Positions 39,829 to 57,078 of a stretch of 64,000 nt of DNA are shown here, one piece after another. The notes under the pieces are model-generated. The model was not told the DNA's origin, searched no databases, and saw only the letters and a list, made by a program, of their open reading frames with translations. The stretch spans positions 2,232,001 to 2,296,000 of the forward strand of contig NZ_CP096884.1 of NCBI RefSeq assembly GCF_023273855.1, given 5' to 3'. Position 1 is the stretch's first letter. Every line of letters starts with the position of its first letter. The translations under genes were made by a program, and so were the position numbers. The DNA comes from Seonamhaeicola sp. ML3 (GTDB lineage: Bacteria > Bacteroidota > Bacteroidia > Flavobacteriales > Flavobacteriaceae).

Positions 39829-41238
39829 ATGAGAATACATGTAGCAACTATCATTTCAGCTTTTATGTTAACCACACTAAGTAATTGTAATGGTCAAACC
39901 CAAAAAAAAGAAACAGCTAAACCAAATATTATAATTATAAATATAGATGATATGGGTTGGCGAGATGTTGGTTTTATGGGTAGCGAATATTACAAAACAC
40001 CAAATATAGACGCACTTTCTAAAGAGGGCATTGTGTTTACAAATGGTTATGCAGCATCCGCAAATTGTGCGCCAAGTAGAGCTTGTTTAATGACTGGGCT
40101 ATGGACGACGCGTCATGGTATTTATACCGTTAATTCTTCTGAAAGGGGACAATCAAAAGACCGAAAACTAATTCCAACAAAAAACACAACATTATTGGCG
40201 CCGAAATTTACTGTAATCCCTGAAGTTTTAAAAAACAATGGCTATACCACTTGTCATGCAGGTAAATGGCACTTGACTCATAATCCACTTGAAGATGGGT
40301 TTGATGTAAATATTGGTGGAAGCCATGCAGGACATCCAACAAGCTATAATCCACCTTATAAAAACGTAAAAATTCAAAAAGGGAAAAGCGAATATCTAAC
40401 CGATTTGGTCATGGAAAACGCTATAAAATTTGTGGATACTATTTCGTCTCCATTCTTTTTATACTATTCACCTTATGCAGTTCATACCCCAATAATGCCT
40501 GTGGATAGCTTATTACCAAAGTATCGAGACAAAACACCTTGGAAAGGTCAGAAAAACATCAATTACGCTACTATGGTCGATAATTTAGATAGAAATATTG
40601 GCTTGCTCATCAAAACATTAAAAGACAAACATCTTTTTGATAATACATTAATTGTATTTACCTCAGATAATGGTGGTTTGTACGGTATTACCAAACAAAA
40701 ACCGTTACGAGCTGGAAAAGGTAGTTATTATGAAGGTGGAATTAGAGAACCATTTTTCTTTGTTTATAATGGCAAAATTAAATCCAACACAAAAAGCGAA
40801 GTACCAATTACCAATCTAGATATCTTCCCAACAATTTTGAAATATGCAGGAGTTGAAGAAACCCAACTTGAATTGGATGGTCATAATTTATCTTCGGTAT
40901 TAGAAGGAAAAACAGAAACGCTTGAGCGACCATTGTTTTGGCATTTCCCTATTTATTTACAGGCATACAATAAAAAAGATAATGAAAATAGAGACCCTTT
41001 GTTTAGAACACGCCCGGGCTCTGTTATTAGAAAAGGAAATTGGAAATTGCACTATTATTTTGAAGATAATGGTATAGAATTGTACAATTTAGCTGAAGAT
41101 ATTGGAGAATTAAACAATGTAGCATCTGCAAACCCAAGCAAAAAAGATGAGTTATTAACCGACTTGAAAAATTGGTGGAAACAAACCAATGCGCCAATAC
41201 CAACAGAATTGAATCCTGAATATATTAACCAAAAATAA
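39829..41238 (+). CDS. Sulfatase, S1 family, lipoprotein
   Basis: A 469-residue sulfatase with a lipoprotein signal (TLSNC, C20). NIDDMGWRDVGFMGS supplies metal ligands, NCAPSRACLMTG holds C80 for formylglycine formation, and HAGKWHL and FTSDNGGLYG complete the site. The C-terminal part includes KGNWKLHYYFEDNGIELYNL. A decayed duplicate of its first 125 codons is at 28451. It is 11 bp behind the GH106-like gene and 20 bp before the GH3 gene, so it belongs to the same transcript. Which sulfate position it attacks is unknown. Confidence 0.93.
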   Translation: MRIHVATIISAFMLTTLSNCNGQTQKKETAKPNIIIINIDDMGWRDVGFMGSEYYKTPNIDALSKEGIVFTNGYAASANCAPSRACLMTGLWTTRHGIYTVNSSERGQSKDRKLIPTKNTTLLAPKFTVIPEVLKNNGYTTCHAGKWHLTHNPLEDGFDVNIGGSHAGHPTSYNPPYKNVKIQKGKSEYLTDLVMENAIKFVDTISSPFFLYYSPYAVHTPIMPVDSLLPKYRDKTPWKGQKNINYATMVDNLDRNIGLLIKTLKDKHLFDNTLIVFTSDNGGLYGITKQKPLRAGKGSYYEGGIREPFFFVYNGKIKSNTKSEVPITNLDIFPTILKYAGVEETQLELDGHNLSSVLEGKTETLERPLFWHFPIYLQAYNKKDNENRDPLFRTRPGSVIRKGNWKLHYYFEDNGIELYNLAEDIGELNNVASANPSKKDELLTDLKNWWKQTNAPIPTELNPEYINQK

Positions 41239-41258
41239 TCTTACATTAATCAACAAAA

Positions 41259-43535
41259 ATGAATTTTTTATATAACAACTATAAACGTGTTTTATCAATT
41301 GTATTGATGATAATCCCTTACATAATTATTGCACAGGAATTTGCCTATAAAGATGCTTCTTTACCCATAGAAGACAGGGTAAATGATCTACTTAGTAGAA
41401 TGACTGTAGAAGAAAAAGTTGGACAGATGTTGATGTTTGGTGCACCAAGAGTTGCGCGAAAGGGTAAAGATGGGTCGTTGGTCATCACCGATTGGGGTAA
41501 ACTATACTTTACAAATGGTTTAGGTGGTTTAAAGTTTCCTTTTAAGTCAGCAAATCCGGAAGAATCAGCAAGACTAAATAACGAACTTCAAAAAAAGATT
41601 ATAGCATCCAACCGCTTTGGAATACCAACATTATTTGTTGGAGAAGCTTATAATGGTGTTGATGCCAGAGGATGTACACGTTTTGGTCGTCCACTTAATT
41701 TAGCGGCTTCTTGGAATGTTAATTTAACGCACGATGTATGGAGTACTATTGGTCGCGAATCCCGTTTACGTGGTTGGCACATGGTCCATTCACCTGTTGG
41801 AGATATTGCACGTGATCCTCGTTTTGGAAGAATGAGTGAAGGGTATGGAGAAGATACTTTTTTAACCACAGAAATGTTGGTAGCTGCTGTAACTGGAGTG
41901 CAAGGAGATTATAATAAAACAAAACCAAATACTACTCATATTGGGGCAGTAGTTAAACATTTTGCAGGGTATAGCCAAGTTGTTGGTGGACGAAATTTTG
42001 CTGCTGTAGAGGTTTCTCCTCGTGTTTTACGAGATGAACTGTTGCCTCCATTTAAAGCTGCTGTGCAAAGAGGTCATGCACTAGCAATAATGCCTTCTCA
42101 TGGTGATATTAATGGGGTGGCTAGTCATGGAAACCCTTGGTTATTAACAGATTTGTTACGAAAACAATGGGGTTTTAACGGTTATGTAGTCTCAGATGCT
42201 TACGATGTAGGTCGTTTAAACTTTTTGATGAAAGTTGCCGAAAATATTGAGGAAGCTGTGAAATTGGGTTTGAAAGCAGGTGTAGATTTAGATTTGTACA
42301 GTGAAGATGTCTACGAACTTTTACCAGAAATGGTAAAGAAAGATCCTAGTTTAATGCCTTACATAAATAGAGCAGCAGGAGATATGTTGCGTACAAAATT
42401 TATTATGGGGCTATTTGAAAATCCTTATATCGATGTAAATGAAACCAAAAAAGAAGTACGTTCAAAAGCTAATCTTGATTTAGCTAAAAAGATGGATGAG
42501 GAGTCCTTAATCTTATTAAAAAACGAAAATGAAATACTGCCGCTAGATAAAAAAGAAAGTAAAAAAATAGCTTTAATTGGTCCTTTGTTAGGAGAAAAAA
42601 CCCTCAATACGTTCAAAAATATAGCTGGTAATGAAATAACTTTTGTTGCAGAAAAGGGATACGAATTAACCAATAGAAATAAAAAGAGACCAGAACTTAC
42701 ACCAAGAAATGATGAGGCGTTAGATAAAATGGTAGCACTAGCTAAAGATGCAGATGTATCGATTCTTTTTGTAGGAGGAGATCGTTTTACTGCTCAGGAG
42801 GCTACTTTTTTCAAGTGGGTTATTGGAGATCGTGCAACCATAGAACCTGTGGGAGTGCAAGATGAATTTATACAACGAGTAAAGGCTTTAGGAAAACCAG
42901 TTATTGTAGTGTTAAAACACAGAAGAACGTTATCGTTTAATGTCATTAATAACAATGCTGACGTGGTTTTAGATTGTTGGGAAATGACCGAATTCGGGGA
43001 TGAATTAGTCGCTAAAGCGCTCTTTGGGGAGTTTTCGCCTTCTGGTAAATTACCTGTTACCGTACCACGCACAATTGGTCAAATTCCTTATCACTATAGC
43101 ATGAAGGAAATCAGTTTCTTTAAAGATTATCTGTTCTTAGAATCTGGTCCTTTATATCCATTTGGGTATGGTTTAAGTTATGCAAAGTTCTCGTATTCAG
43201 AACCTAAATTATCAAGTGATGTCTTAGAGCGTGATGGAACAATACAAGTAAGTGTAGATGTTACGAATACAGGAAAGGTAAACGCAAAAGAAGTGGTGCA
43301 AATGTATGTAAAAGATATGTTTGGTTCTGTATTACGCCCTGATAAGGAACTGAAAGGTTTTAACAAGATTGAATTAAAACCTGGAGAAACAAAAACAGTT
43401 CAATTTACAATTACTCCAGATATGTTAGTTTTTACAGGAGTAGAAATGAAACCGATTCTAGAAGCCGGAGATTACGAAGTTATGGTGGGAACATCGTCTC
43501 AAGAATATAAAAAAGTGTCGTTTCGTTTAAAATAG
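41259..43535 (+). CDS. GH3 beta-glycosidase, exported
   Basis: A 758-residue GH3 enzyme with a Sec signal peptide (to about residue 26, IIAQ). The N-terminal TIM barrel starts LLSRMTVEEKVGQMLMFG and has HSPVGDIARDPRFGRMSEG and GAVVKHFAGY. D313 in VVSDAYDVGRLN is the nucleophile. The alpha/beta sandwich domain includes LALIGPLLG-like and SGKLPVTVPRTIGQIPYHY segments. A C-terminal fibronectin III-like domain (YPFGYGLSY, then VTNTGKVNAKEVVQMYV) closes the protein. It would release beta-linked xylose or glucose from the non-reducing end; xylose would fit an ulvan-type substrate. The RhaT-like gene follows after 41 bp. Confidence 0.9.
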   Translation: MNFLYNNYKRVLSIVLMIIPYIIIAQEFAYKDASLPIEDRVNDLLSRMTVEEKVGQMLMFGAPRVARKGKDGSLVITDWGKLYFTNGLGGLKFPFKSANPEESARLNNELQKKIIASNRFGIPTLFVGEAYNGVDARGCTRFGRPLNLAASWNVNLTHDVWSTIGRESRLRGWHMVHSPVGDIARDPRFGRMSEGYGEDTFLTTEMLVAAVTGVQGDYNKTKPNTTHIGAVVKHFAGYSQVVGGRNFAAVEVSPRVLRDELLPPFKAAVQRGHALAIMPSHGDINGVASHGNPWLLTDLLRKQWGFNGYVVSDAYDVGRLNFLMKVAENIEEAVKLGLKAGVDLDLYSEDVYELLPEMVKKDPSLMPYINRAAGDMLRTKFIMGLFENPYIDVNETKKEVRSKANLDLAKKMDEESLILLKNENEILPLDKKESKKIALIGPLLGEKTLNTFKNIAGNEITFVAEKGYELTNRNKKRPELTPRNDEALDKMVALAKDADVSILFVGGDRFTAQEATFFKWVIGDRATIEPVGVQDEFIQRVKALGKPVIVVLKHRRTLSFNVINNNADVVLDCWEMTEFGDELVAKALFGEFSPSGKLPVTVPRTIGQIPYHYSMKEISFFKDYLFLESGPLYPFGYGLSYAKFSYSEPKLSSDVLERDGTIQVSVDVTNTGKVNAKEVVQMYVKDMFGSVLRPDKELKGFNKIELKPGETKTVQFTITPDMLVFTGVEMKPILEAGDYEVMVGTSSQEYKKVSFRLK

Positions 43536-43576
43536 TACCATTCAAAAAATAAGATTAGAATTTAAAATATAAAGAT

Positions 43577-44629
43577 ATGCAAGCACTATTAGGAGTAATA
43601 TTTCATTCTTTAGGAGGCGTAGCAGCAGGTAGCTTTTACATGCCCTATAATAAAGTTAAAGGTTGGTCTTGGGAAACCTACTGGATGGTTGGGGGTGTTA
43701 TGTCTTGGTTAATTGTACCTCCAATAGCAGCCTGTTTAACAGTACCTGGTTTTTTAGATATTATTGCGGCTAGTTCGTCTACCATTTTAGGAGTTACCTT
43801 TTTAATGGGTTTACTATGGGGTGTTGGTGGTTTGTCTTATGGTTTGGGTGTTCGATATCTAGGCATGTCTTTAGGTAACTCTGTTGTACTCGGATTTTGT
43901 GCTGCATTTGGAGCTATTGTACCTTCTATTTATTACAATTTTAATCCAGAAGAAGGTAAAACATCGTTTACAGAGATGATAAGTTCAACAGGAGGTCAGG
44001 TTGTTCTCTTAGGTGTTTTGGTATGTTTAATAGGCATTGCAGTCTGTGGTAAAGCAGGAATGCTAAAAGAAGGCGAACTATCTGAAGAGGAGAAAAAGAA
44101 AAGTGTCGCAGAATTCAATCTCGTTAAAGGATTAATTGTTGCGGTACTTTCAGGTATTTTAAGTTCCTTTTTTAGTTTTGGAATAGAAGCTGGAAAACCA
44201 TTGGCCGATGCTGCTGTAGCTGCAGGTTATGACCATTTGTTTGCAAATAATGTGACGTTTGTGGTAATTCTATGGGGTGGTTTAGCCACTAATTTTGTGT
44301 GGACTAGCTATTTGAGTTTAAAAAATAAAGCCTATAAAGATTTTACCAATAAAGAAACTCCTATTTCTAAAAACTTACTATTTTCTGCTTTGGCGGGAAT
44401 CATCTGGTTTTTACAGTTTTTCTTTTATGGTATGGGTGAAAGCAAATTGGGTAATGGCGCCAGTTCATGGATTTTACACATGTCTACCATTATTTTAACG
44501 GCAAATTTTTGGGGTATTTATCGTAAAGAATGGCATGGTGTTGCCAAAAAAACCAAGTTTACCATTACTGCTGGGATTATAGTTATTTTGCTATCTGTTG
44601 TTTTAGTAGGAATAGGGAATTCATTATAA
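43577..44629 (+). CDS. rhaT: L-rhamnose permease (RhaT family)
   Basis: A 350-residue inner-membrane protein with ten predicted hydrophobic segments. It opens with LLGVIFHSLGGVAAGSFYMP and WSWETYWMVGG, the signature of the L-rhamnose-proton symporter family. SYGLGVRYLGMSLGNSVVLG and GEFSPSG-free, fully hydrophobic later helices agree. It should import free L-rhamnose released by the GH78 and GH106 enzymes, directly linking the PUL to rhamnose catabolism. It is the last forward gene before the convergent kinase gene. The 67-bp gap between the two stop codons holds no clear terminator. Confidence 0.9.
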   Translation: MQALLGVIFHSLGGVAAGSFYMPYNKVKGWSWETYWMVGGVMSWLIVPPIAACLTVPGFLDIIAASSSTILGVTFLMGLLWGVGGLSYGLGVRYLGMSLGNSVVLGFCAAFGAIVPSIYYNFNPEEGKTSFTEMISSTGGQVVLLGVLVCLIGIAVCGKAGMLKEGELSEEEKKKSVAEFNLVKGLIVAVLSGILSSFFSFGIEAGKPLADAAVAAGYDHLFANNVTFVVILWGGLATNFVWTSYLSLKNKAYKDFTNKETPISKNLLFSALAGIIWFLQFFFYGMGESKLGNGASSWILHMSTIILTANFWGIYRKEWHGVAKKTKFTITAGIIVILLSVVLVGIGNSL

Positions 44630-44696: not shown

Positions 44697-46055
44697 CTAG
44701 AACGAGTTTAGGGTTAAAGTAAAAACTGTTTCTTTTTTTGGAATAGATTTTACCATTAAAGAACCTTGATGGAGTTGCATAATGTGTTTTGAAAGACTTA
44801 GGCCAATACCTGTGCCGTTCTCTTTGTTGGTGTAAAAAGGAGTGAAAATTTTGTGAATATCTTCTTCTAGAATACCCATACCATTATCTTTTACAAGTAT
44901 TTCAATATTCCCTAAAGTATTTTTAATGCCTTCTAGCTTAATAATAGCGTTAGGAAATTCATCTAAAGCATCAACAGCATTTTTGGTTAAATTTAAAAGC
45001 ACTTGTTTAATTTGGTGCTCGTCTGCAAAAATCTCAAGGTCTGAAGGTGTTGTATTCGTTTGAAATTTGATGTTCTTACACTTGGGGTCTTCTTGAAAAA
45101 TTACAATTGTTCTTTTAAACAATTCAGGTACTTTAATAATTGTTTTATTGGGTTTTGGGATTTTAGTAAGGGCTCTATACCCAGTGACAAACTCCTTTAA
45201 ACTTTTGCTTTGCTCATGTATAACTGATAATCCTTGATTTAATTTTTTTAAATCCGAAGCTTTTATTACACTAGTTTGTGTAGTATCCTTTTCAGTTGTA
45301 AGCATTTTAGACAAGCTTTCAGAAATAGATGTAATAGGTGCTAAGGCGTTCATAATCTCGTGACTCATTACTTTTATTAAACCCATCCAAGAATCAACTT
45401 GTTTTGTATCTAATTCATTATAGATATTTTGGATGCTCACCAATAAAACTGAGACTTCTTTAATTTCTACCAGTTTTGCTGTTATTTTTAGTTCAGCAGT
45501 TGTGCGTTCATTGGTTAGAGAGATTAACTGCTGTTCAAATGGTTTTAAATTCGAAATCAGATTATATAGCCTTATATTAACTTTTTTTAGTTGTTTAATA
45601 TGGGTAAGTACATTACAATTTAGAAGTTGTTTTACACTTTCATTAGCAAACAAAATATGTCCGTAAAGATTTACAGACAATATACCCACATTGGTACATG
45701 ATAGTAAAGTCTTATAATATTGTTCTTGCACTTGAGTATTGTACCTTTCTTCTTTAATGATGTTATTTACTCTGTTTAAACCATTATTTAACTGATTTAA
45801 AATAGTATTATTAGTATCTTCAGAAAAACTCACAGTGGTATCAGAATTTTCTAAAGCATTAAAAAAGAATGTTAGTTTTCGGTTGGTGGTATTAAAAAAA
45901 TTTATAATTGATATTGTCTGTAAACTTAATATCACACCAAGTAAAATTGCAATTCCAATTTGATTTTTTAAAATGGACAAAGCTAGTGCTAAACAAGTAA
46001 TTAGTATTAAAAGTATTCTTATAAATGTTTTTACGTATAGGTTTTTAGAAAGCAT
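44697..46055 (-). CDS. Sensor histidine kinase (NtrB/NtrY type)
   Basis: A 452-residue membrane kinase. Two transmembrane helices lie at about residues 9-29 and 33-53 with almost no periplasmic loop, so a membrane or cytoplasmic signal is likely. A PAS-like region follows (about 115-215, VGILSVNLYGHILFANES). The dimerisation and phosphoacceptor helix is VMSHEIMNALAPI with H232. The ATPase domain has LLNLTKNAVDAL (N box), VKDNGMGI and GTGIGLSLSKHIM (G boxes). Its gene starts 13 bp behind the sigma54-type regulator, so the two form an operon and a two-component pair. The likely target is the divergent efflux operon. Confidence 0.92.
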   Translation of the reverse strand: MLSKNLYVKTFIRILLILITCLALALSILKNQIGIAILLGVILSLQTISIINFFNTTNRKLTFFFNALENSDTTVSFSEDTNNTILNQLNNGLNRVNNIIKEERYNTQVQEQYYKTLLSCTNVGILSVNLYGHILFANESVKQLLNCNVLTHIKQLKKVNIRLYNLISNLKPFEQQLISLTNERTTAELKITAKLVEIKEVSVLLVSIQNIYNELDTKQVDSWMGLIKVMSHEIMNALAPITSISESLSKMLTTEKDTTQTSVIKASDLKKLNQGLSVIHEQSKSLKEFVTGYRALTKIPKPNKTIIKVPELFKRTIVIFQEDPKCKNIKFQTNTTPSDLEIFADEHQIKQVLLNLTKNAVDALDEFPNAIIKLEGIKNTLGNIEILVKDNGMGILEEDIHKIFTPFYTNKENGTGIGLSLSKHIMQLHQGSLMVKSIPKKETVFTLTLNSF

Positions 46056-46068
46056 TTAAAGGCAAAGT

Positions 46069-47436
46069 TTATATTTTGAAACGTTTTGTTTTATTGTATA
46101 GCGTTTGTCGTGTAATACCTAGCTGTTCAGCTGTGCTACTAAAGTTACCATTATGCTTTTTAAGTGCATTTATTATCATATTTTTTTCCATTTCGTCAAT
46201 AGTCATATCTACGGTATTGAAGGATTTTGTTTTATGATGGTTAAGCATAAAATCATTTACCGTTAGTTCATTATTCTCGCTCAAAATAACACAGCGCTCT
46301 ATGGTATGTTGTAGTTCTCGTATGTTTCCTGGCCAATGGTGTTTAAGTAGTTTTTTCTTTATGGGCGCATGTAGTTTTAGTCCTTTTTTATCATACTTAT
46401 GGGCATATTTGTTTAGAAAATAATCTGCTATTTCAATCACATCATTGGCACGTTCTCTAAGTGGAGGTATTTCAATGTGTATGGTGTTAATTCGATATAA
46501 TAAATCTTCTCTAAAAGTTCCTTCTTCTACCATTTTATATAAGTTGCAATTGGTTGCACAAATAAGTCGAACATCAATTGGTATAACTTTATTAGAACCA
46601 ACTCGTACTATTTGTTTTTCTTGAATTACTTTAAGAAGTTTAGCTTGTAATTGTAATGGTAAGTTGCCGATTTCATCTAAAAAAATAGTGCCTTTGTGGG
46701 CAATTTCAAATTTTCCTATCCTATCGTTTTTGGCATCTGTAAAAGCACCTTTAACATGTCCAAAAAGTTCGCTTTCAAATAAACTTTCTGTTAAAGCACT
46801 TACATCTACATTAATTAAAATTTCTTGATTTTGTAGAGATTGACGGTGTATTGCTTTTGCAAAAAGTTCCTTTCCGGTACCATTTTCTCCTGTTATTAAA
46901 ACAGATGCCTTTGTTTTTGCTACTTTTTTAGTAATGTTTAAAACAGATTTTAAAGCAGGAGAGTTGCCAATAATATCATGCTGGGTGTCATTAATAAGTT
47001 GTTTTAAGTGCTTTTCATTTTGTTCAAGTAGACGTAATTTTTTTTGTGATTTTCCTAATTGAAAAGCCGAGTGAATTGTAGCTAAAATTTTCTCATTATC
47101 CCATGGTTTTAAAACGAAATCTACAGCACCTTCTTTTAGAGTATTAACAGCTAGTTCTACGTCTCCAAAAGCTGTCATCATAATTACAGATGTGTCTGGA
47201 ATAATATCTTTTAATTTTCTAAGCCAAAAGAACCCTTCGTTTCCTGTGTTAACTCTAGACGAAAAATTCATGTCTAAAAGCACAACATCATACGTTTTTA
47301 AGTCTTTAACAGAGGTAATGCCATTAGGATTTTGAAGTGTGGTTACTGTTTTATAAACATCTTGTAATAGTAACTCAAGTGCACTTAAGATTCCTTTATT
47401 ATCATCTATTATAAGTATTTTTCCTAGTAGTTTCAC
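46069..47436 (-). CDS. Sigma54-dependent response regulator (NtrC family)
   Basis: A 455-residue regulator starting at GTG 47436, since no ATG is near. The receiver domain has D55 in VVLLDMNF as phosphorylation site and a conserved K110 (VLKPW). The AAA+ domain (about 155-385) has Walker A GENGTGKE (183-190), Walker B FLDE (252-255) and the loop that contacts sigma54, here GAFTDA (230-235) in place of the usual GAFTGA, a variant that I believe is common in Bacteroidota. The C-terminal Fis-type helix-turn-helix includes ITRQTLYNK. It activates promoters read by sigma54 RNA polymerase. A matching promoter lies in the divergent intergenic region. Confidence 0.94.
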   Translation of the reverse strand: MKLLGKILIIDDNKGILSALELLLQDVYKTVTTLQNPNGITSVKDLKTYDVVLLDMNFSSRVNTGNEGFFWLRKLKDIIPDTSVIMMTAFGDVELAVNTLKEGAVDFVLKPWDNEKILATIHSAFQLGKSQKKLRLLEQNEKHLKQLINDTQHDIIGNSPALKSVLNITKKVAKTKASVLITGENGTGKELFAKAIHRQSLQNQEILINVDVSALTESLFESELFGHVKGAFTDAKNDRIGKFEIAHKGTIFLDEIGNLPLQLQAKLLKVIQEKQIVRVGSNKVIPIDVRLICATNCNLYKMVEEGTFREDLLYRINTIHIEIPPLRERANDVIEIADYFLNKYAHKYDKKGLKLHAPIKKKLLKHHWPGNIRELQHTIERCVILSENNELTVNDFMLNHHKTKSFNTVDMTIDEMEKNMIINALKKHNGNFSSTAEQLGITRQTLYNKTKRFKI

Positions 47437-47486
47437 AGATTAGCATCTTTCCTTCAAAGCTACAAAGAAGTAGTTTTTATAAAAAT

Positions 47487-47511
47487 AAAGTGTAAAACAT
47501 TTTTACACTTT
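47487..47511 (+). promoter_or_regulatory. Perfect inverted repeat, likely enhancer site of the sigma54 regulator
   Basis: AAAGTGTAAAA (47487-47497) and TTTTACACTTT (47501-47511) are perfect 11-bp inverted arms around CAT. The centre is about 107 bp upstream of the transcription start expected from the sigma54 promoter at 47581, the usual distance for an upstream activating site bound by a Fis-type helix-turn-helix dimer. It is also 51-75 bp from the regulator's own start codon, so autoregulation is possible. Function is inferred from symmetry and position. Confidence 0.65.
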
Positions 47512-47580
47512 TATTAAAAAAATTTTACATTATTCATTTGGTTTTACTTTCAATTAATTGTTTTACAGAAGGTTATGGTT

Positions 47581-47596
47581 TGGCATGCAAGTAGCA
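47581..47596 (+). promoter_or_regulatory. Sigma54 (-24/-12) promoter of the efflux operon
   Basis: TGGCATGCAAGTAGCA fits the consensus TGGCACG-N4-TTGCA in 10 of 12 fixed positions, with the obligatory GG and GC dinucleotides at the exact spacing. The predicted start of transcription is near 47606, about 15 bases before the ATG at 47621. It sits next to the gene of a sigma54 activator, which makes a chance match unlikely. Confidence 0.7.
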
Positions 47597-47620
47597 CTAG
47601 AAAGTGCAAAATATTTATCA

Positions 47621-48952
47621 ATGCGAAATGCTTCTCTAACTTTTATAATCTGTATTGCTTTTTTTAAACTAAGTGATGCGCAAAAATTATGGACTTTAGA
47701 GGAATGTATTATTTACGCTTGCAAACATAATTTAGAACAAAAAATAACCACTTTAAATTCAGAAATAGATAAAGAAATTTATAAACAATCAAAAAGAGAC
47801 TTTTTACCTAGTTTTAGTGCAGTATCAAATGTAAATAGACGTTTTGGTAGATACGTAGACCCTAACAATAACAACATTTTAAATACAGCTACCTCTTCAA
47901 ATACTTATGGAGTTGTGGCGTCGTTAAATTTATTCAATAATTTTAAAAAATGGCATGAAAGGTCACAAAGAAAGTTGTTGTATCATGCTGGTTTAGCTAA
48001 TGTTTTACAAAAAAAGTATAGCCTAGCTTTTCAAGTTATGGATGCTTTTTATTTGGTTGTTTTTAGAGAAGTTTTAGTAGAAATAGCAAAAGATAATCTT
48101 AAAATTTCTAAAAAGAATTATCAGCTAATTGCTTCTAAAGTTAAATTAGGACTGTTGGCAAAAGCAGACTTATACGAGGTAGAGTCACAGATACAGACCA
48201 ACGAATTAGAGATTGTACAGGCAGAAAACAACTTAGAAGAGGCTACTTTAAGTTTGCTTCAAATTATGAATCTTGAGACAGATACTATAAAGTTAAAATT
48301 AGAGTTGGATTCTTATGATGTTGAAAATAAATTATTTGTATCCGATATTTACGCTAAAGCGCTTCTGTTTTTGCCCAATATTAAACGTCACGAATTATAT
48401 GTTGATGCTTCAGAAAAGCAACTTTCTATAATAAAGAGCGAGCTTTATCCCTCCTTATCTTTAAATGCTGGTTTGCGAACAGGGTATTTTGAAACCAGTG
48501 TTGACGAGAATGGGGATATAACCCCTTTCTTAGACCAACTATCAAACAATGCTTCAAAAACTATTGGGGTATCACTTCGAATTCCTTTAAGTAATAGGTG
48601 GTCAAAGCATGCGGATATTAATGTTGCAAAGCTAAATATTCAAAAGGAAAAAAAAATTTTAGAACAAAAGAAGCAGGAGATTTATAAGGAAATTCAAAAA
48701 ACAATTCAGAAACATACATCACTTTTAGTAGAGCAAGAAGAAAATGATTCTAATTTAAAATCCAAATATTTGGAGTTCACTTTTGCTCAAAAAAAATTTG
48801 ACAAAGGACTGGTAACTATATACCAATTAGAGCAAGTAAAAAACAATTTAGCACAGGCCAAAACTGAAAAAACAAGAATTAATTTACAATTGGCATATCA
48901 AAAAAAGGCCTTAGATTTTTACTGTGGTATTGCAGTTTTTCCTTTTGAATAA
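47621..48952 (+). CDS. TolC-family outer membrane efflux protein
   Basis: ATG 47621 is chosen because it begins directly at a signal peptide (ending LSDAQ) and because a sigma54 promoter covers the upstream in-frame TTG at 47558; the protein is then 443 residues. It starts the mature part with LWTLEECIIYACKHNLEQK, typical of TolC homologues, and shows two long coiled-coil helical hairpins (about 155-215 and 345-420). LFNNFKKWHERSQRK and VSLRIPLSNRW are strands of the beta barrel. It forms the outer-membrane channel for the ABC exporter encoded next. The membrane fusion gene starts 8 bp behind its stop codon. Confidence 0.92.
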   Translation: MRNASLTFIICIAFFKLSDAQKLWTLEECIIYACKHNLEQKITTLNSEIDKEIYKQSKRDFLPSFSAVSNVNRRFGRYVDPNNNNILNTATSSNTYGVVASLNLFNNFKKWHERSQRKLLYHAGLANVLQKKYSLAFQVMDAFYLVVFREVLVEIAKDNLKISKKNYQLIASKVKLGLLAKADLYEVESQIQTNELEIVQAENNLEEATLSLLQIMNLETDTIKLKLELDSYDVENKLFVSDIYAKALLFLPNIKRHELYVDASEKQLSIIKSELYPSLSLNAGLRTGYFETSVDENGDITPFLDQLSNNASKTIGVSLRIPLSNRWSKHADINVAKLNIQKEKKILEQKKQEIYKEIQKTIQKHTSLLVEQEENDSNLKSKYLEFTFAQKKFDKGLVTIYQLEQVKNNLAQAKTEKTRINLQLAYQKKALDFYCGIAVFPFE

Positions 48953-48959
48953 CATAAAT

Positions 48960-50210
48960 ATGGATACCAAAATAGAACGAAAAAAACGAATAAAGCCAAA
49001 ACATATAATTTTTTGGGGATTAATTGTGGTTTTGTTAACAATTATAGGAAAGAATTTTTTTGTTGTGACATCTTCTAAAACTCAAGTTCATACAAAAGAT
49101 ATTACGATTAGTTATGTAAAACAAGGAGCTTTCAGCGATTATATCACTATTAATAGTGTAGTAAAACCAATAACTACCGTATATCTAGATGCTTATGAAA
49201 GTGGTAGGGTAGTAAGTAAATATATTGAAGAAGGAAGTATGGTAAAACAAGGCGATATTATTGTGAAACTAGAAAATAGAGAGCTTTATGAACGTATACT
49301 GGTAAGTGAAAATAACTTAGCAATTAAACAGAACAACCTTAGAGAAACCAAAATAAATTTTGAGTCACAGCGTGTTTTAAGTCAAAAAGATTTAATCGAG
49401 GCTAAATATAGGGTTATTAAGGCTAATAGAACTTTTGAGCAAAATGCATCGTTGTACAAGGATGAATTAATTTCTAGAGAAACGTATTTACAGTCGAAAG
49501 AAGAACGAGATTTAGCAACTAAACGTTACGAAGTCTTTAAATTTAAAACCCAACAAGATTCTTTATTAAGTGTTACAGGTATAAAAGAGCTAGATAACGA
49601 TTTAATTCGTATGAAAAAGACGTTGGCTATGGTTTACGAGAGAATAGAACACCTTAATGTAAAAGCAACAATTGATGGACAACTAGGCATGTTAGATGCC
49701 GAGGTTGGCCAAAGTATAGCCCAAGGACAACCCATAGGACAAATACATGATTTAACAAGTTTTAAGGTTCAAGCAAGTATAGATGAACATTATATAGATA
49801 GAGTAACAAGAAATATTGTTGGAGTTTTAGAGCGAGATGGAGACACCTATACGCTTGAGGTAAAAAAAATCTATCCAGAAGTTAGAGATGGGCAATTTAA
49901 AATTGATTTAGTTTTTGAGGACAAACTACCCAATACAATTAGAGCTGGACAAAGTTATTTTATTCGATTGGAATTAGGCACGCCAACAAGTGCTACATTT
50001 ATAGATAAAGGAAGTTTTTTTAATGACACTGGAGGACAATGGATTTATGTGGTTGATGCTTCAGGGAATTTTGCTACCAAACGCTCCATAAAAATTGGGA
50101 GACAAAATCCTCAGTATTTCGAAGTTATAGAAGGTTTGAGAAAAGGAGAGCAAGTAATAACCTCAAGTTACAAATATTTAGAAGATAGTAAAACACTTAT
50201 TTTAAACTAA
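48960..50210 (+). CDS. HlyD/MacA-type membrane fusion protein
   Basis: A 416-residue periplasmic adaptor. ATG 48960 is preferred over 48924, which lies inside the TolC gene. It has a cytoplasmic Lys/Arg-rich start, one transmembrane helix (about residues 16-36), a lipoyl-like half domain (VVSKYIEEGSMVKQGDIIVKL), a coiled-coil hairpin (about 105-190), the second lipoyl half (GQLGMLDAEVGQSIAQGQPIG) and beta-barrel and membrane-proximal domains (IRAGQSYFIRLELG, ITSSYKYLEDS). It connects the inner-membrane ABC permease to TolC. The ATPase gene follows after 6 bp. Confidence 0.92.
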   Translation: MDTKIERKKRIKPKHIIFWGLIVVLLTIIGKNFFVVTSSKTQVHTKDITISYVKQGAFSDYITINSVVKPITTVYLDAYESGRVVSKYIEEGSMVKQGDIIVKLENRELYERILVSENNLAIKQNNLRETKINFESQRVLSQKDLIEAKYRVIKANRTFEQNASLYKDELISRETYLQSKEERDLATKRYEVFKFKTQQDSLLSVTGIKELDNDLIRMKKTLAMVYERIEHLNVKATIDGQLGMLDAEVGQSIAQGQPIGQIHDLTSFKVQASIDEHYIDRVTRNIVGVLERDGDTYTLEVKKIYPEVRDGQFKIDLVFEDKLPNTIRAGQSYFIRLELGTPTSATFIDKGSFFNDTGGQWIYVVDASGNFATKRSIKIGRQNPQYFEVIEGLRKGEQVITSSYKYLEDSKTLILN

Positions 50211-50216
50211 TAAAGG

Positions 50217-50891
50217 ATGATACAACTAAACAATCTAACCAAAATTTTTAGAACAGAAGACATTGAAACCAAAGCACTGAATAATATAAATATTCAAGTT
50301 GAAAAAGGCGAGTTTATAGCTATTATGGGACCTTCAGGATGTGGAAAATCTACGCTTTTAAATATTTTAGGTTTAATAGATACACCATCAAATGGAAGCT
50401 ATCAATTTAATAATAAAGAAGTAGGTAACTTAAAAGAGAAAGACCTCACTAAAGAAAGAACTGGAAACATTGGTTTTATATTTCAAAGTTTCAATTTAAT
50501 AGATGGTTTAACAGTTTACGAAAATGTTGAACTGCCATTAACATATATGAATATGAAACCCAAAGAGCGAAAAGAAAAAGTAAAAGCTGTTTTAAAGCGT
50601 ATGAAAATAGACCATCGTTCTAACCATTTTCCACAACAATTATCTGGTGGGCAACAGCAACGTGTAGCCATTGCAAGAGCAGTTGTTGCAGAGCCAAAAT
50701 TATTATTAGCAGATGAACCTACAGGTAATTTAGATTCTAAAAATGGTACAGAAGTGATGAGTTTACTAACTGAATTGAGTAAAGAAGGGGCCACTATAAT
50801 TATGGTTACACACTCTGAAAGCGATGCTAATTATGCACATAGAATAATAAATCTTTTCGATGGAAAAATCGTAATGGAAACAAGTAACTAG
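50217..50891 (+). CDS. ABC transporter ATPase (MacB/LolD type)
   Basis: A 224-residue ATPase with Walker A GPSGCGKST (38-46), Q-loop IFQSFNLIDGLT, signature LSGGQQQR (142-149), Walker B LLLADEP (162-168) and H199 in MVTHSE. Size and sequence are typical of the MacB/LolD/FtsE group, which couples with FtsX-fold permeases and drives mechanotransmission rather than transport across the inner membrane. The AAAGG just before the ATG is one of the few Shine-Dalgarno-like sites in the window. It works with the permease encoded 33 bp downstream. Confidence 0.95.
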   Translation: MIQLNNLTKIFRTEDIETKALNNINIQVEKGEFIAIMGPSGCGKSTLLNILGLIDTPSNGSYQFNNKEVGNLKEKDLTKERTGNIGFIFQSFNLIDGLTVYENVELPLTYMNMKPKERKEKVKAVLKRMKIDHRSNHFPQQLSGGQQQRVAIARAVVAEPKLLLADEPTGNLDSKNGTEVMSLLTELSKEGATIIMVTHSESDANYAHRIINLFDGKIVMETSN

Positions 50892-50924: not shown

Positions 50925-53360
50925 ATGAACTTTATCAAACTAAAGATTTTCTATCGCAATTTAAAACGAGATAAACTTATTTCAATTATCAATGCTGTTG
51001 GTTTAATAGTGGGTATGGTTAGTGCGCTATTTATTCTTGAATATGTGTATTACCAAAAAAGCTACGACAATCATCATTTAAATGGAGAAGATATTTACCG
51101 TGTAGCTTATAATCGTTATGAAAATGATAAAGTATTATGGGAAACTGCCAACTCTTTCCCCCCAACGGGCGAATGGTTAAAAGCGCATTATAGCGATGTA
51201 GTAAATCACACCAGAATTACACCTAAACACGAAATCACAATAAGTTATGAAAATATTTCAAAGGCTAGAGTGATTTATTCCGAAGACAGAACATATTACG
51301 CGACAGCTTCTTTTTTTGAAGTGTTTACAATTCCAATGATAATTGGAGAACAGGATGCCTTAAAAGCACCCAATACGGTAGCTATATCAAATACAGCTTC
51401 AAAACGATATTTTGGAGAAGAGGTAAATCCTATTGGAAAATCAATAAAAGTTAATGGTACAGAAGACTATACAGTTACTGCTGTTTATGAAAGGATGCCG
51501 GAAAATTCGATTTTAAAAACCGACTTTTTATTTTCTATGGAAACGCTTTACAAGCAAAGTCCAAGGATTAGAAATAGTTGGGGGTATGATTATGGTACTA
51601 CCTTCATTCAATTAAAACCTGATAGTGATTATAAAACTATAGAGAAAGTTGCACTTCCAGAAATGATAGCCACAAACTATAAGAAAAGACTTGATGCGCA
51701 AAACAGAAGAGATGTATATTATTTACAACCATTGCAAAGTATTCATTTGAATTCTAATATTGAATACGAGACAGAACCTCCGGTTAATGGGAAAATAATA
51801 GACATCTTATTTGGGTTCTCCATTTTTCTTTTGATTATAGCATGGATAAATTTTATTAATCTAACCACGGCACGTTCCATAGAAAGAGCGAACGAAGTGG
51901 GGGTTAAAAAAATTAACGGAGCAACCAAAATACAATTATTAGTGCAGTTTTTAAGCGAGGCTTTTCTTTTTAATATACTATGTTTAGTAGTAACTATTAT
52001 TTTATTTTACGCGCTAAACCCTTCATTTAAAGCAATTACAAAAATTGGAGATTTTCACCTGTTTGAACACCATAACTTCTTAACAACTTTTACAATTCTA
52101 TTTGTTCTAGGAATTATTGCTTCCTGTATATATCCAGCAATTGTATTACAATCTTATAAGCCAGTAACCGTTCTAAAAGGCAATTTTAAGAATAAAAGAG
52201 AGGGTGTAATTTTTAGGAAATTATTGGTAACCCTTCAATTTGTAATTTCTGTAATCTTACTCTGCGGTACATTTATCGCTTACAAGCAGGCAACATTTTT
52301 AATGGAAAAAGATATGGGTATTAATTACGAACAGAGTGTTGTTGTTAAAGCGCCTAAAACTGGAGAAAAGCAAAGCCAATTGCGCAATAAAATTCTCTTA
52401 ATGAAAAATGATTTAAAGCAATTACCCGAAGTAAGAGATTTTACATTTACATCAGATATACCGGGACAAGAAATTCAACATTGGTTTGGATGCCGAAGAA
52501 AAGGGACTGATGCTTCTAAGAATCACGCGTTTTTTCAGTTATCTGTAGATGACCAATTCATTGATTTTTTCGATGTGAAACTATTAGCAGGTAGACCATT
52601 TAGAAAAGGAGAGCGTGAAAATGCTAATAAAAGTATCATAATGAATAAAAAAGCCATGGAGCGTTTAGGCTTTAAATCTCCAGAGGAAGCAGTTGATAGT
52701 TATGTGGTTAATAGAGGGGGAGAGTATAAAATTGTAGGTGTAACGGAAGATTTCCATTATTATTCAATAAAGAATGAGCCAGTACCAACTGTAATTAGAC
52801 TTACAGATAGGCATAAAGCATTTTTGATTTTAAAAGTGAACTCAAAAAATGATTATAGCTCAGAAATTTCAACAAAAATTAAGACTATTTTTAATAGCTA
52901 TTTTCCAGAACAACCTTTCGATTATTTGATTTTAGAAAATAAAATAGAGCAAAATTTAAAGCCTGATAGAACTTTTTTATTTGTTTTTGGTTTGTTTTCT
53001 GTTCTAGCTATAATCATTGCAATTATTGGTTTTATGGGGCTGATTTTAATCACTATAAATCATCGTGTAAAGGAAATTGGTGTAAGAAAGGTATTGGGTG
53101 CTAAATTTAAAAGTGTTTATAGACTTTTAACTAAAGAAGTAATTGGGCAAGTTGTAATTGGTGTTCTAATCGCCATACCTTTGGCATGGTATGGCTATAA
53201 ACATTGGTTTTTAGATACTTATATAGATAGTATTGAGTTACGGGTATGGATGTTTTTGGTCCCGGTAGTCCTGTTACTACTTATCATCTTGTCGGTAATC
53301 TATTTAATAACTTTAAAAGCATACAAAATGACAATGTCAGAAGTATTACAAAATGAGTAA
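50925..53360 (+). CDS. FtsX/MacB-type ABC permease with two FtsX domains
   Basis: An 811-residue inner-membrane protein in the two-module arrangement usual for Bacteroidota. A first transmembrane helix (about 20-42) is followed by a large periplasmic MacB-PCD domain, three helices around residues 285-420, another helix near 430-450, a second periplasmic domain (about 465-670) and three C-terminal helices. NEVGVKKINGATKIQLL and KEIGVRKVLGAKFKSVY are the paired FtsX motifs. With the neighbouring ATPase, adaptor and TolC protein it forms a tripartite exporter; substrates of such systems include antibiotics, peptides, lipoproteins and siderophores. The gene overlaps or abuts the lectin-like gene behind it. 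Confidence 0.92.
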   Translation: MNFIKLKIFYRNLKRDKLISIINAVGLIVGMVSALFILEYVYYQKSYDNHHLNGEDIYRVAYNRYENDKVLWETANSFPPTGEWLKAHYSDVVNHTRITPKHEITISYENISKARVIYSEDRTYYATASFFEVFTIPMIIGEQDALKAPNTVAISNTASKRYFGEEVNPIGKSIKVNGTEDYTVTAVYERMPENSILKTDFLFSMETLYKQSPRIRNSWGYDYGTTFIQLKPDSDYKTIEKVALPEMIATNYKKRLDAQNRRDVYYLQPLQSIHLNSNIEYETEPPVNGKIIDILFGFSIFLLIIAWINFINLTTARSIERANEVGVKKINGATKIQLLVQFLSEAFLFNILCLVVTIILFYALNPSFKAITKIGDFHLFEHHNFLTTFTILFVLGIIASCIYPAIVLQSYKPVTVLKGNFKNKREGVIFRKLLVTLQFVISVILLCGTFIAYKQATFLMEKDMGINYEQSVVVKAPKTGEKQSQLRNKILLMKNDLKQLPEVRDFTFTSDIPGQEIQHWFGCRRKGTDASKNHAFFQLSVDDQFIDFFDVKLLAGRPFRKGERENANKSIIMNKKAMERLGFKSPEEAVDSYVVNRGGEYKIVGVTEDFHYYSIKNEPVPTVIRLTDRHKAFLILKVNSKNDYSSEISTKIKTIFNSYFPEQPFDYLILENKIEQNLKPDRTFLFVFGLFSVLAIIIAIIGFMGLILITINHRVKEIGVRKVLGAKFKSVYRLLTKEVIGQVVIGVLIAIPLAWYGYKHWFLDTYIDSIELRVWMFLVPVVLLLLIILSVIYLITLKAYKMTMSEVLQNE

Positions 53361-53388: not shown

Positions 53389-53955
53389 ATGAAAACAAAA
53401 GCAAAAAAAGCACTTGTATTAACAATTTTTCAATTAAGTATGTATATAACTTTTGGTCAATGTGCTAGCCCTTCCAACATACACTCGTTTACATATAAAG
53501 GCAAAACATATGAAATAATAAAAGAGAATAAAACTTGGGTCGAAGCATCTGCATGTGCCAAAAAACGAGGTGGTATTTTGGTGGAAATTAATGATACTGA
53601 TGAGCAAAATGCTATTTATTCAGAATTGGTTTCTAAAGCTCATATAAATAATAACAACACTATTGCACAAGATGGAGGTGGAGGTGCTTATGTTTGGATT
53701 GGGGCGAACGATTTTGCTACTGAAGGTAGTTGGGTTTGGGATGGTAATAATGATAAAAAAGTAACACTGTTTTGGGTTGGAGACCGGTCAGGAAACGCCA
53801 TTGATGGGCTTTTTAATAATTGGGGGGATGAACCAGATGATTATGGTGGACAAGATGCACTTGGTTTGTCTTTAAATGGTTGGCCTTTAGGAGAAGCTGG
53901 ACAGTGGAATGATGTAGACCATAATAATGAGTTGTACTTTGTTATTGAGTATTAA
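53389..53955 (+). CDS. Secreted C-type-lectin-like domain protein
   Basis: ATG 53389 is preferred to 53353, which overlaps the permease, because it opens at a signal peptide (ending ITFGQ); the protein is 188 residues. Nearly the whole mature chain is one C-type lectin fold: WVEASACAKKRGGILVEIND, WIGANDFATEGSWVWDG, NNWGDEPDDYGGQDAL and WNDVDHNNELYFVIEY. The EPD and WND segments correspond to the calcium and sugar binding sites (EPN and WND) of calcium-dependent lectins. The disulfide cysteines of animal lectins are mostly absent. It is encoded directly behind an ABC exporter permease and is likely part of that operon. A sugar-binding or adhesion role is inferred; EPN-type sites prefer mannose or glucose-like sugars. 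Confidence 0.82.
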   Translation: MKTKAKKALVLTIFQLSMYITFGQCASPSNIHSFTYKGKTYEIIKENKTWVEASACAKKRGGILVEINDTDEQNAIYSELVSKAHINNNNTIAQDGGGGAYVWIGANDFATEGSWVWDGNNDKKVTLFWVGDRSGNAIDGLFNNWGDEPDDYGGQDALGLSLNGWPLGEAGQWNDVDHNNELYFVIEY

Positions 53956-54009: not shown

Positions 54010-54089
54010 ATAGTACAGGCCAGTGCAGGATAATCAACCTCCTATTGTTTTATACTTTCATAAAAAAAACTATAGTTGATTTAAAAGCA

Positions 54090-55550
54090 ATGATATATCA
54101 AACAACAAAAAGCTGTCTTTTAATTTTCGTAATTTTAATCTGTTTTTCCTGTAAGCAAAAAACTTCAGGAGTTGAGGTTGTAGAACAAAAACCAAATCTA
54201 CTTTTCATTTTTGCAGACCAATACAGGCAAGCGTCTTTAGGATTCTTAAAAGAAGACCCAGTACACACACCAAATATAGACCAATTGGCTGAAGAAGGTG
54301 TTTTTTTTAGTGAAGCCGTAGCCAATAATCCATTGTGTAGCCCTTATAGAGCTATGTTAATTACAGGGCGATATTCACTATCAACGGGTGTAGTAGAGAA
54401 TTGTAACTCTCAAAGAACAGAATTTGGAAATTATTTAAAGAAAGATGAAATCTGTATTTCTGATGTTTTGGTTAATAATGGTTATAGTGCAGGTTATGTA
54501 GGTAAATGGCATTTAGATGGGCCAGAGCCAACACCACCTGATGTAAAACGTGTTTGGGATACGTGGTGTCCACCAGACCGCAGACACGGTTTTTCTTTTT
54601 GGTATGCTTATGGAACACACAACAGACATAATGCACCTTATTATTGGTCCACCAATGCCAAAGAGGATGAAAAAACATACATCAAAAAATGGTCTGCAGA
54701 ACATGAGGCTGATGTTATTATGGACTATTTAGATAACAATGAAAATCAGCGAAAAGCAGAAGAACCATTTGCTTTATTTTGGTCTATTAATCCACCCCAC
54801 ACACCATTTACACAAGTGCCTGAGCGTTACAAAAAACGTTATGAAGGGTTGGATTATAAAGACGTATTAAATCGTCCAAATGTTCAGTTCACAGACAATC
54901 ACGAATTAAAACGAGGAGATAAAGGTGTTGAAAAACGTTTGAATCAAGCCAAAGATTATTTTGCGTCTGTTAATGGTGTAGATGACCAAATTGGTCGTGT
55001 TATTCAAAAACTAAAAGAAAAAGGACTGTATGAAAATACTATTATTGTATTTTCTGCCGATCACGGTGAAATGTTAGGAAGTCAAGGATTGATGCATAAA
55101 AATGTATGGTTTAAAGAAGCTTACAGGATTCCTTTAATTGTTCATTATCCGAAAAAAATAAAACCCAAAACAGAAGATTTGTTGATTTCTGTACCAGATT
55201 ATATGCCAACACTGTTAGGGTTGATGAATTTAAAGACTGAAATTCCAGATGCTGTTGAAGGTGTAGATTATTCCAATCTGTTTTTCGATAAGGAAGTCAA
55301 TCGTCCAAAAAAACAGTTATATTTTGGAGGAAAAAGTTTCGCGTCAAAGGGTGATGCTCGAGGTTTTAGAACCAAAGACTATACATATGCTGTGGTAAAA
55401 GGAGAACATAATGAAAAGTTTCATTATCTCTATCATGATGCTAAAGACCCATGTCAAATGACTAATATTTGGGGTGAAAATCCAGAGCTAGACAAAAAAA
55501 TGGAAACGGAATTAGCAGAATTGCTAAACTCTATGAACGACCCTTGGTAA
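54090..55550 (+). CDS. Sulfatase, S1 family, lipoprotein
   Basis: ATG 54090 is preferred to 54045 because it starts at a lipoprotein signal (LICFSC, C21); the protein is 486 residues. It has IFADQYRQASLG, where the usual Asp-Asp metal pair reads Asp-Gln, as in several S1 subfamilies. LCSPYRAMLITG follows with C83 as the formylglycine precursor, then VGKWHLDGPE, SINPPHTPF and FSADHGEMLGSQGL with KNVWFKE, a pattern shared with the partial sulfatase at the window start. It is followed 15 bp later by the enolase-superfamily gene. It would act on sulfated oligosaccharides outside the cytoplasm. Confidence 0.93.
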   Translation: MIYQTTKSCLLIFVILICFSCKQKTSGVEVVEQKPNLLFIFADQYRQASLGFLKEDPVHTPNIDQLAEEGVFFSEAVANNPLCSPYRAMLITGRYSLSTGVVENCNSQRTEFGNYLKKDEICISDVLVNNGYSAGYVGKWHLDGPEPTPPDVKRVWDTWCPPDRRHGFSFWYAYGTHNRHNAPYYWSTNAKEDEKTYIKKWSAEHEADVIMDYLDNNENQRKAEEPFALFWSINPPHTPFTQVPERYKKRYEGLDYKDVLNRPNVQFTDNHELKRGDKGVEKRLNQAKDYFASVNGVDDQIGRVIQKLKEKGLYENTIIVFSADHGEMLGSQGLMHKNVWFKEAYRIPLIVHYPKKIKPKTEDLLISVPDYMPTLLGLMNLKTEIPDAVEGVDYSNLFFDKEVNRPKKQLYFGGKSFASKGDARGFRTKDYTYAVVKGEHNEKFHYLYHDAKDPCQMTNIWGENPELDKKMETELAELLNSMNDPW

Positions 55551-55565
55551 ACGGGAACATTACAA

Positions 55566-56789: not shown

Positions 56790-56803
56790 CTCAATAACTC
56801 AAA

Positions 56804-56929
56804 TCATTCGGCTCTACATAGCTCAATATCCTTAAACTGAATGTGTGCTGTTACATCTCCAGAATCTCCAGAGCCATAAGTACTATAGCGCGTAATAACG
56901 TTGTCTTTAGTATGATTGTGTTCAATATA
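56804..56929 (-). pseudogene. Small antisense remnant of a beta-sandwich C-terminus
   Basis: On the minus strand about 40 codons read VYIEHNHTKDNV, ITRYSTYGSGDSGDV and AHIQFKDIELCRAE before a TGA (56804-56806). The FKDIEL ending is like the last strand of DUF1080 or related lectin-fold domains. Stops lie just upstream in this frame (near 56930 and beyond) and there is no start codon, so it is probably a fragment of a lost gene transcribed in the opposite direction. The rest of the 289-bp gap (56790-57078) shows no other feature. Confidence 0.35.
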
Positions 56930-57078
56930 TACTTCTTATATTCAAAGTTATAACTATTAAATAGACTCACTATCGTATGCTGTCTAGTTTTAGTTGAATC
57001 TTACATGATGGTACAGGACGATATTTGGGCATCTTTATTATACTTTTCCAACGTTAATCCTTAAACAAAAATTATAGA

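Follow-up and report, generated by a model that had tools for sequence, protein, structure and literature searches.

What controls the exporter operon that diverges from an NtrC-type regulator in Seonamhaeicola sp. ML3, and how far does that control reach? The window, by which we mean the whole 64,000-nt stretch analysed here (NZ_CP096884.1, positions 2,232,001-2,296,000, forward strand, of a 3.47-Mb genome), was credited in a preliminary description with a complete sigma54 control region that drives an exporter-lectin operon from a single palindromic enhancer. Comparison with relatives indicates that the control region is genuine, that its conservation reaches much further than had been claimed, and that the larger finding is a predicted sigma54-type regulon of expandable permease arrays. 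The region likely belongs to a sigma54-dependent two-component export system of Flavobacteriaceae, with a permease regulon that would share a common core. Its features are listed by position in the window.

44697..46055, minus strand: sensor histidine kinase, 452 aa (Pfam HATPase_c), with a hydrophobic N-terminus
46069..47436, minus strand: NtrC-type response regulator with REC, Sigma54_activat AAA+ and Fis HTH domains (Pfam), GTG start
47455..47462, minus strand: candidate housekeeping -7 element TAGCTTTG (TAnnTTTG), found by eye, that would serve leftward transcription of regulator and kinase
47487..47511, no strand: extended palindrome with core 47491-47507 (TGTAAAACATTTTTACA), operator O1, from pattern search and orthologue comparison
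47513..47529, no strand: operator O2 ATTAAAAAAATTTTACA, 22 bp beyond O1, with a decayed left half and 8 of the 10 fixed positions kept
47551..47563, no strand: IHF-like site CAATTAATTGTTT, one mismatch against the consensus YAANNNNTTGATW
47581..47596, plus strand: -24/-12 promoter TGGCATGCAAGTAGCA, expected start ~47606-47607, from consensus match and orthologue comparison
47621..48952, plus strand: TolC-family outer-membrane protein, 443 aa (Pfam OEP)
48960..50210, plus strand: HlyD-family periplasmic adaptor of 416 aa (HlyD_3 in Pfam; DarC is the best NCBIfam match, below cut-off)
50217..50891, plus strand: ABC ATPase, 224 aa (Pfam ABC_tran; best NCBIfam match DarD, below cut-off)
50925..53360, plus strand: duplicated MacB_PCD/FtsX permease, 811 aa, ADOP-like, the sole permease of the operon (Pfam, NCBIfam)
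53389..53955, plus strand: C-type lectin-domain protein, 28 bp past the permease (Pfam Lectin_C)

The -7 consensus TAnnTTTG is that given in the available part of PMC9723704. The gene arrangement is as the preliminary description had it, with regulator and kinase diverging from the TolC/HlyD/ABC operon and the domains borne out by Pfam. The regulator carries the full NtrC-type set (REC, sigma54 AAA+ and Fis HTH) and is one of three proteins in the genome with strong sigma54-activator matches; rpoN is present in one copy. The operon holds the complete part list of a MacAB-TolC-type system, comprising TolC, adaptor, ATPase and a MacB_PCD+FtsX permease. It sits in a polysaccharide-type locus (39829-44629 and 54045-59931) with a RhaT symporter and with sulfatase-like and glycosidase-like ORFs recognised by eye.

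At E ≤ 1e-150, 61 of the 397 family genomes, from 45 of 237 genera, have an orthologue of the regulator. The locus seems accessory within the genus, because G213 and G374, other genomes of the window's genus, have no regulator match at this threshold. In 17/17 orthologous loci of ~14 kb each, the kinase and regulator genes are accompanied by TolC, HlyD, the ATPase and one or more MacB-type permeases, and the lectin is found in 0/17. Judged by this gene content, the lectin is a local addition, incidental to the conserved exporter unit. The earlier exporter-lectin unit, with the lectin as a conserved operon member, finds no support, and the conserved further part is instead a family of ~800-aa permeases. 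A close relative has, past its only permease, a 93-aa fragment that is 59% identical to the window permease (L046:11354), possibly the remnant of a larger permease array.

Upstream of the operon, AAAGTGTAAAA-CAT-TTTTACACTTT at 47487-47511 is indeed a perfect palindrome, with two 11-bp arms around a 3-bp spacer, and its centre at 47499 lies ~107 bp before the predicted start at ~47606, as had been claimed. Searched as a 23-bp pattern with at most three mismatches, it occurs once in the window against 0.03 expected from shuffles. The perfect copy is unique in the 3.47-Mb genome, where three other places match with three mismatches. The reported 10-of-12 agreement of the -24/-12 element at 47581-47596 with the consensus was likewise recovered, with the GG-N10-GC spacing kept. 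By itself this match is at chance level, with five places of at most two mismatches found against 5.46 expected, and judging the motif by its own score was given up. The reading is rescued by the relatives, because operators precede GGCAY-N5-TNG in all 59 readable orthologous regions.

Readable intergenic regions were obtained for 59 of the 61 orthologues; G037 and G390, in which the regulator lies at a contig end, were dropped. The preliminary description had named absence of the palindrome and the -24/-12 motif before orthologous operons as grounds for refutation; the sigma54 reading survives this check, with operators and a -24-type element ahead of the TolC orthologue in 59/59. The operators form a pair of the TGT-N11-ACA type, 17 bp each and exactly 22 bp apart (consensus TGTNNAANNNTTNNACA, with 8-10 of the 10 fixed positions matched in each operator). 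This shared consensus does not extend to the outer bases of the palindrome in the window. The palindrome itself therefore stands, while as the enhancer unit it is replaced, by orthologue comparison, with the tandem pair of 17-bp operators. The preliminary description had only the first of these and had missed O2, the IHF-like site and the non-conservation of the lectin.

Promoter anchors were picked by a score that weights the TGG, T and G of the -24/-12 element, so that the values of 59/59 for GG, for G and for T are partly by construction; the C is present in 21/59. The -24 reads TGGCAY with a single CGGCAT, and, measured from the start of O2, its T comes at 79-82 bp in 58/59 loci and at 68 bp in the window. 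At -12, a T is followed by A (31), C (15) or G (13) and never T, then by G, then by T (30), C (21) or A (8); the textbook TTGC is found in 0/59 TolC promoters. The -12 C is missing from 38/59 TolC promoters and from 40/43 of the other sites described below (two opposite-strand echoes included). Likely sigma54 promoters with GC at -12 occur in the same genome before grpE (TGGCAGTACTTTTGCC, TTGC, L063:13510-13720) and groES (TGGCACATTTTTAGCA, TAGC, L064:10500-10800), both of which are targets of the sigma54 motif SM4 in F. psychrophilum according to the available part of PMC9723704.

In 40/59 TolC promoters, a further TGGCAYA follows the first at a distance of exactly 23 bp, at the expected start. 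It was rejected as a general promoter part; it occurs in 0/41 other regulon sites and is absent from the window, where only GCA is left at 47604-47610. Between operators and promoter, 36/59 TolC promoters have an IHF-like site with at most one mismatch to the IHF consensus, compared with 0.94 on average in shuffles.

The window copy departs from this common plan. Its O1 is perfect, the left half of O2 is lost, the IHF-like site contains a single mismatch and the start-site TGGCAYA is gone. The operator-promoter distance is ~12 bp, one helical turn, shorter than in the other 58 and is the single outlier; alignment with three 81%-identical relatives places a gap between O2 and the promoter. Left out of the training set, the window promoter receives a score of 46, below all of the other 58, the lowest of which reaches 49.9, and the reversed sequence of 334 kb of the relatives' loci gives no match above 24. 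Opposite-strand echoes in the array loci, which arise because the operator pairs are palindromic, score 24-41 in 13 cases, close below the window's value. The distance from the O1 start to the -24 is 90 bp in the window. Since this shorter distance matches a second spacing class of other regulon sites, the promoter, though partly degenerate, is probably functional. The "complete" control region of the preliminary description is not the most complete copy (half of O2 lost, start-site TGGCAYA absent, distance outlying). The window carries a reduced or minimal form of the predicted regulon, with one permease.

The arrangement was sought genome-wide as a strict pattern, O1-5-O2-(50 to 75)-TGGCAY, in 58 regulator-positive genomes (G271 was left out together with G037 and G390) and in 58 regulator-negative family genomes taken in listing order, 50 of them at least 90% complete, a set that includes some genomes with paralogous regulators and some small ones. 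It occurs in 49/58 of the former and 0/58 of the latter, and the reversed pattern in none of either set (n = 58 each); the reversed control and the regulator-negative genomes rule out chance matches as the source of the extra sites. Nine of the 58 regulator-positive genomes, the window's own among them, are without the strict pattern. The 92 strict sites comprise 49 at a TolC promoter and 43 others, with further sites in 21/58 genomes. All 43 were read, and two opposite-strand echoes (L139 and L158, both plus strand) were dropped, leaving 41.

Behind 37 of these 41 sites, the first gene within 200 bp is an ORF of 769-830 aa, and all 37 carry MacB_PCD and FtsX. One site (L138) precedes an ABC ATPase gene, identified by sequence, two precede a DUF2807 protein and one (L159) has no fitting gene behind it. 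The -24 lies 101-104 bp from the O1 start in 31/41 and 90-93 bp in 10/41. The two classes differ by roughly one helical turn, which is what a need for regulator and polymerase to sit on the same face of the DNA would predict. T and G at -12 are present in 38/43 of the other sites (echoes included), which were found without the -12, save that the candidate with T and G was preferred where two TGGCAY lay in range. MacB_PCD matches have a median of 14 per genome with the regulator against 4 without (58 each, kinship ignored, three counts of at least 43), or 3.2 against 1.4 per Mb, again with kinship ignored. Outside the family, regulators at E ≤ 1e-150 were found in five genomes of a 295-genome class sample, at six loci. 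In G602 and G654, similar operators and TGGCAT are seen by eye before an HlyD-first operon, ~23 bp apart in G654 and with a degenerate second operator in G602; the other four loci show no clear operator pair by eye.

Permease arrays stand behind one TolC-HlyD-ATPase set in relatives such as G377 (L164-L169) and G018 (L170-L173). The six array genomes were hand-chosen, five of them for many sites or matches, and are not typical for that reason. Rows of permease-size ORFs past the operon number 40 in G377, 27 in G018, 14 in G350, 8 each in G357 and G075 and 1 in G044, with further promoters of regulon type inside four of the six loci. Interspersed with the permeases are DUF2807 proteins (three cases scanned) and alpha/beta hydrolases (two cases). 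All five large arrays end with an ORF of ~221 aa, and the two that were scanned are both ABC_tran; a second ATPase-size ORF at the array ends weakens the notion of one ATPase for all.

Permease identity within an array is low, with medians of ~30-34%. In a conservation profile of 98 permeases from six relatives together with that of the window, the best-conserved stretches include window residues 301-340 and 701-740 (2.6-3.1 bits), which we take to resemble the coupling, ATPase-contacting segments of FtsX/MacB. Residues 61-300 and 461-680, presumably periplasmic, are mostly lower (1.0-2.2 bits). The ADOP model TIGR03434 matches 38/38 permeases (37 site-led and the window's); for the window permease it is the best NCBIfam match, at 237.8 bits, below the family cut-off of 622.3 bits.

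The regulator has the loop GAFTDA, the exact GAFTGA being absent, and G[AS]FTD[AS] is found in 27/27 orthologous loci (window included) and in 11/11 paralogues read. On this evidence GAFTDA is a variant loop, by which inactivity is not proven, and it might go with the unusual -12 element. The eleven paralogous regulators (L035-L045, with divergent operons) are 47-50% identical and have a different HTH. Their operators, of the TGTTCG..CGAACA or TGTATC..GNACA types, are spaced by 22 bp in 10/11 and 21 bp in 1/11; in 11/11 the -24 is found at 90-92 or 100-102 bp. Because the paralogues keep the geometry and change the letters, the spacing looks like a family rule and the operator letters appear tied to the regulator HTH.

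For the kinase, the preliminary description proposed two close helices and no sizeable periplasmic domain. A sizeable outside domain is lacking in 18/18 kinases (hydropathy and sequence, first 120 residues each), and the proposal is consistent with all of them; two separate segments are resolved by the hydropathy script in 11/18, and the other 7, the window's included, show one hydrophobic stretch. Sequence comparison supplies the operators, their spacing, the promoter, the genes that follow the sites and the restriction of sites to genomes with the regulator; for the working of the system we infer a mechanism in which this membrane kinase, with almost no outside part, would sense a membrane disturbance or the state of a transporter from within the membrane and phosphorylate the NtrC-type regulator. 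Two regulator dimers bound to the tandem operators 22 bp apart would seed an AAA+ ring, an IHF-type protein would bend the DNA between operators and promoter, and the ring would open a sigma54 polymerase poised at the -24/-12 element. The resulting transcript would encode the TolC channel, the HlyD adaptor, the ATPase and the MacB/FtsX-type permease. In relatives, the same regulator may drive further promoters for more permeases, an extra ATPase and DUF2807 proteins, which suggests that one channel-adaptor-ATPase core probably serves interchangeable permeases. Counting against this account are the variant loop of the regulator, the -12 C absent from most sites, the partly degenerate window copy with echo scores close to its own, the second ATPase-size ORF of the large arrays, the site with no fitting gene (L159) and the nine regulator-positive genomes in which the strict pattern is missing. 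By analogy, envelope stress or a membrane-active or toxic compound is the most likely trigger, because the available parts of the literature place DUF2807 in the Toastrack domain of PSP/Lia envelope-stress systems (PMC11237479) and describe FtsX-type transporters beside such kinases in antimicrobial peptide sensing in Firmicutes (PMC5985334, PMC3023708).

In its fullest form, this reading has a single sigma54-switched TolC-HlyD-ATPase core common to tens of interchangeable permeases with diverged periplasmic domains, arrayed and dispersed, under the same enhancer; we advance it tentatively, as a plausible account. If true, it would describe a modular exporter repertoire and tell which ATPase and signal serve 'orphan' ADOP-type permeases. 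ADOP proteins are named as permeases without neighbouring ATPases, and regulation could be as proposed while the permeases use their own or another ATPase or act as ATP-independent sensors, with no shared core. The ~221-aa ORF at the far end of each of the five large arrays and the extra site that drives an ATPase gene would fit such an arrangement. We nevertheless consider it unlikely, given that G377 has two confirmed ATPase genes for 40 permease-size ORFs and that the best-conserved parts of the permeases include segments that resemble ATPase-contacting ones. A BceRS-AB-like detoxification loop, in which the permease itself would detect a peptide or antibiotic and pass the signal on to the kinase while extra permeases serve as sensors or pumps for other compounds, deserves serious if guarded consideration. 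BceAB modules are not known to include TolC or HlyD, and in the window the permease is a duplicated MacB/FtsX protein of 811 aa and the regulator is of the sigma54 type. In favour of such a loop are the kinase without a sizeable outside domain, DUF2807 behind two regulon sites, an FtsX-type permease beside a two-component system, as in BceAB (PMC5985334, PMC3023708), and the predicted sigma54 control of COG0577 permeases in Bacteroidia (PMC12316311). The loop is compatible with the main reading of a sigma54-dependent two-component export system and differs from it in the signal.

The remaining alternatives concern the purpose of the operon and the owner of the operators. Export of a self-made product, like that of the darobactin exporter DarBCD, is suggested by the Dar models that are the best NCBIfam matches of adaptor and ATPase; all scores are, however, below the curated cut-offs (DarB 128.3/700, DarC 183.5/450, DarD 290.6/375 bits) and the operon's own genes include no biosynthesis gene, which makes this quite improbable. 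Service to the surrounding polysaccharide-degradation locus, with its sulfatases, rhamnose symporter and lectin, would account for the adjoining RhaT and sulfatase-like ORFs (by eye) and for a lectin 28 bp downstream. It is very unlikely, as G044, with an 81% identical regulator, has the operon and neither RhaT nor lectin in its 15-kb locus, and as the lectin is missing from all 17 orthologous loci. Finally, the pairing of operators and regulator is drawn from sequence comparison, and the operators could belong to another regulator with the NtrC-type gene a bystander. This is hardly credible when the strict site occurs in 0/58 regulator-negative genomes and when the regulator's paralogues share the geometry while their operator letters differ with the HTH.

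In Bacteroidota, duplicated FtsX-type permeases form large families that are reported as being of unknown function; PMC11573002 counts 28 and 33 copies of an 'acidobacterial duplicated orphan permease' in two Dyadobacter genomes. A shared enhancer code now links permeases related to such orphan families to one regulator and a single set of channel, adaptor and ATPase, and through this link their partner, signal and function become directly testable. According to PMC12316311, COG0577 permeases of Bacteroidia are predicted to be under sigma54 control, and its accessible sections claim to be first in connecting sigma54 with an ABC system of this type; neither the window-type regulator nor its operators appear in those sections. 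Our searches of open-licence papers turned up no description of the regulon or of the permease arrays. The promoter code predicts targets in other regulator-bearing genomes.

Among known systems, the NtrC/AtoC/ZraR activators share the REC-AAA-Fis architecture of the window regulator, and NtrC-type sigma54 systems have tandem upstream operators, an IHF-like site and a -24 element, as in the window promoter. The window system differs from these activators in its GAFTDA loop, in a TolC-promoter -12 of T[ACG]G with the C often missing and in having an exporter as target. The SM4 motif of Flavobacterium psychrophilum represents -24/-12 promoters in the same family as the window organism, with one operon tested by mutagenesis; unlike the window operon, its targets in Table 2 of PMC9723704, a selection in an article available in part, are chaperones, gliding genes and others. 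BceRS-BceAB also combines a kinase without a sizeable outside domain with an FtsX-type transporter, whereas the window system is tripartite and has a sigma54-type regulator. The darobactin exporter DarBCD provides the best NCBIfam matches of adaptor and ATPase, all below the curated cut-offs. MacAB-TolC, of the type VII ABC exporters, has the same TolC, HlyD-type adaptor, ATPase and MacB_PCD/FtsX permease. In contrast to MacB proper, the ATPase and permease of the window are separate genes rather than fused, and in contrast to MacAB-TolC the permease is a duplicated ~800-aa form, with up to 40 permease-size genes per core in relatives. Unlike the orphan ADOP proteins of TIGR03434, the permeases described here are tied to an ATPase and a regulator.
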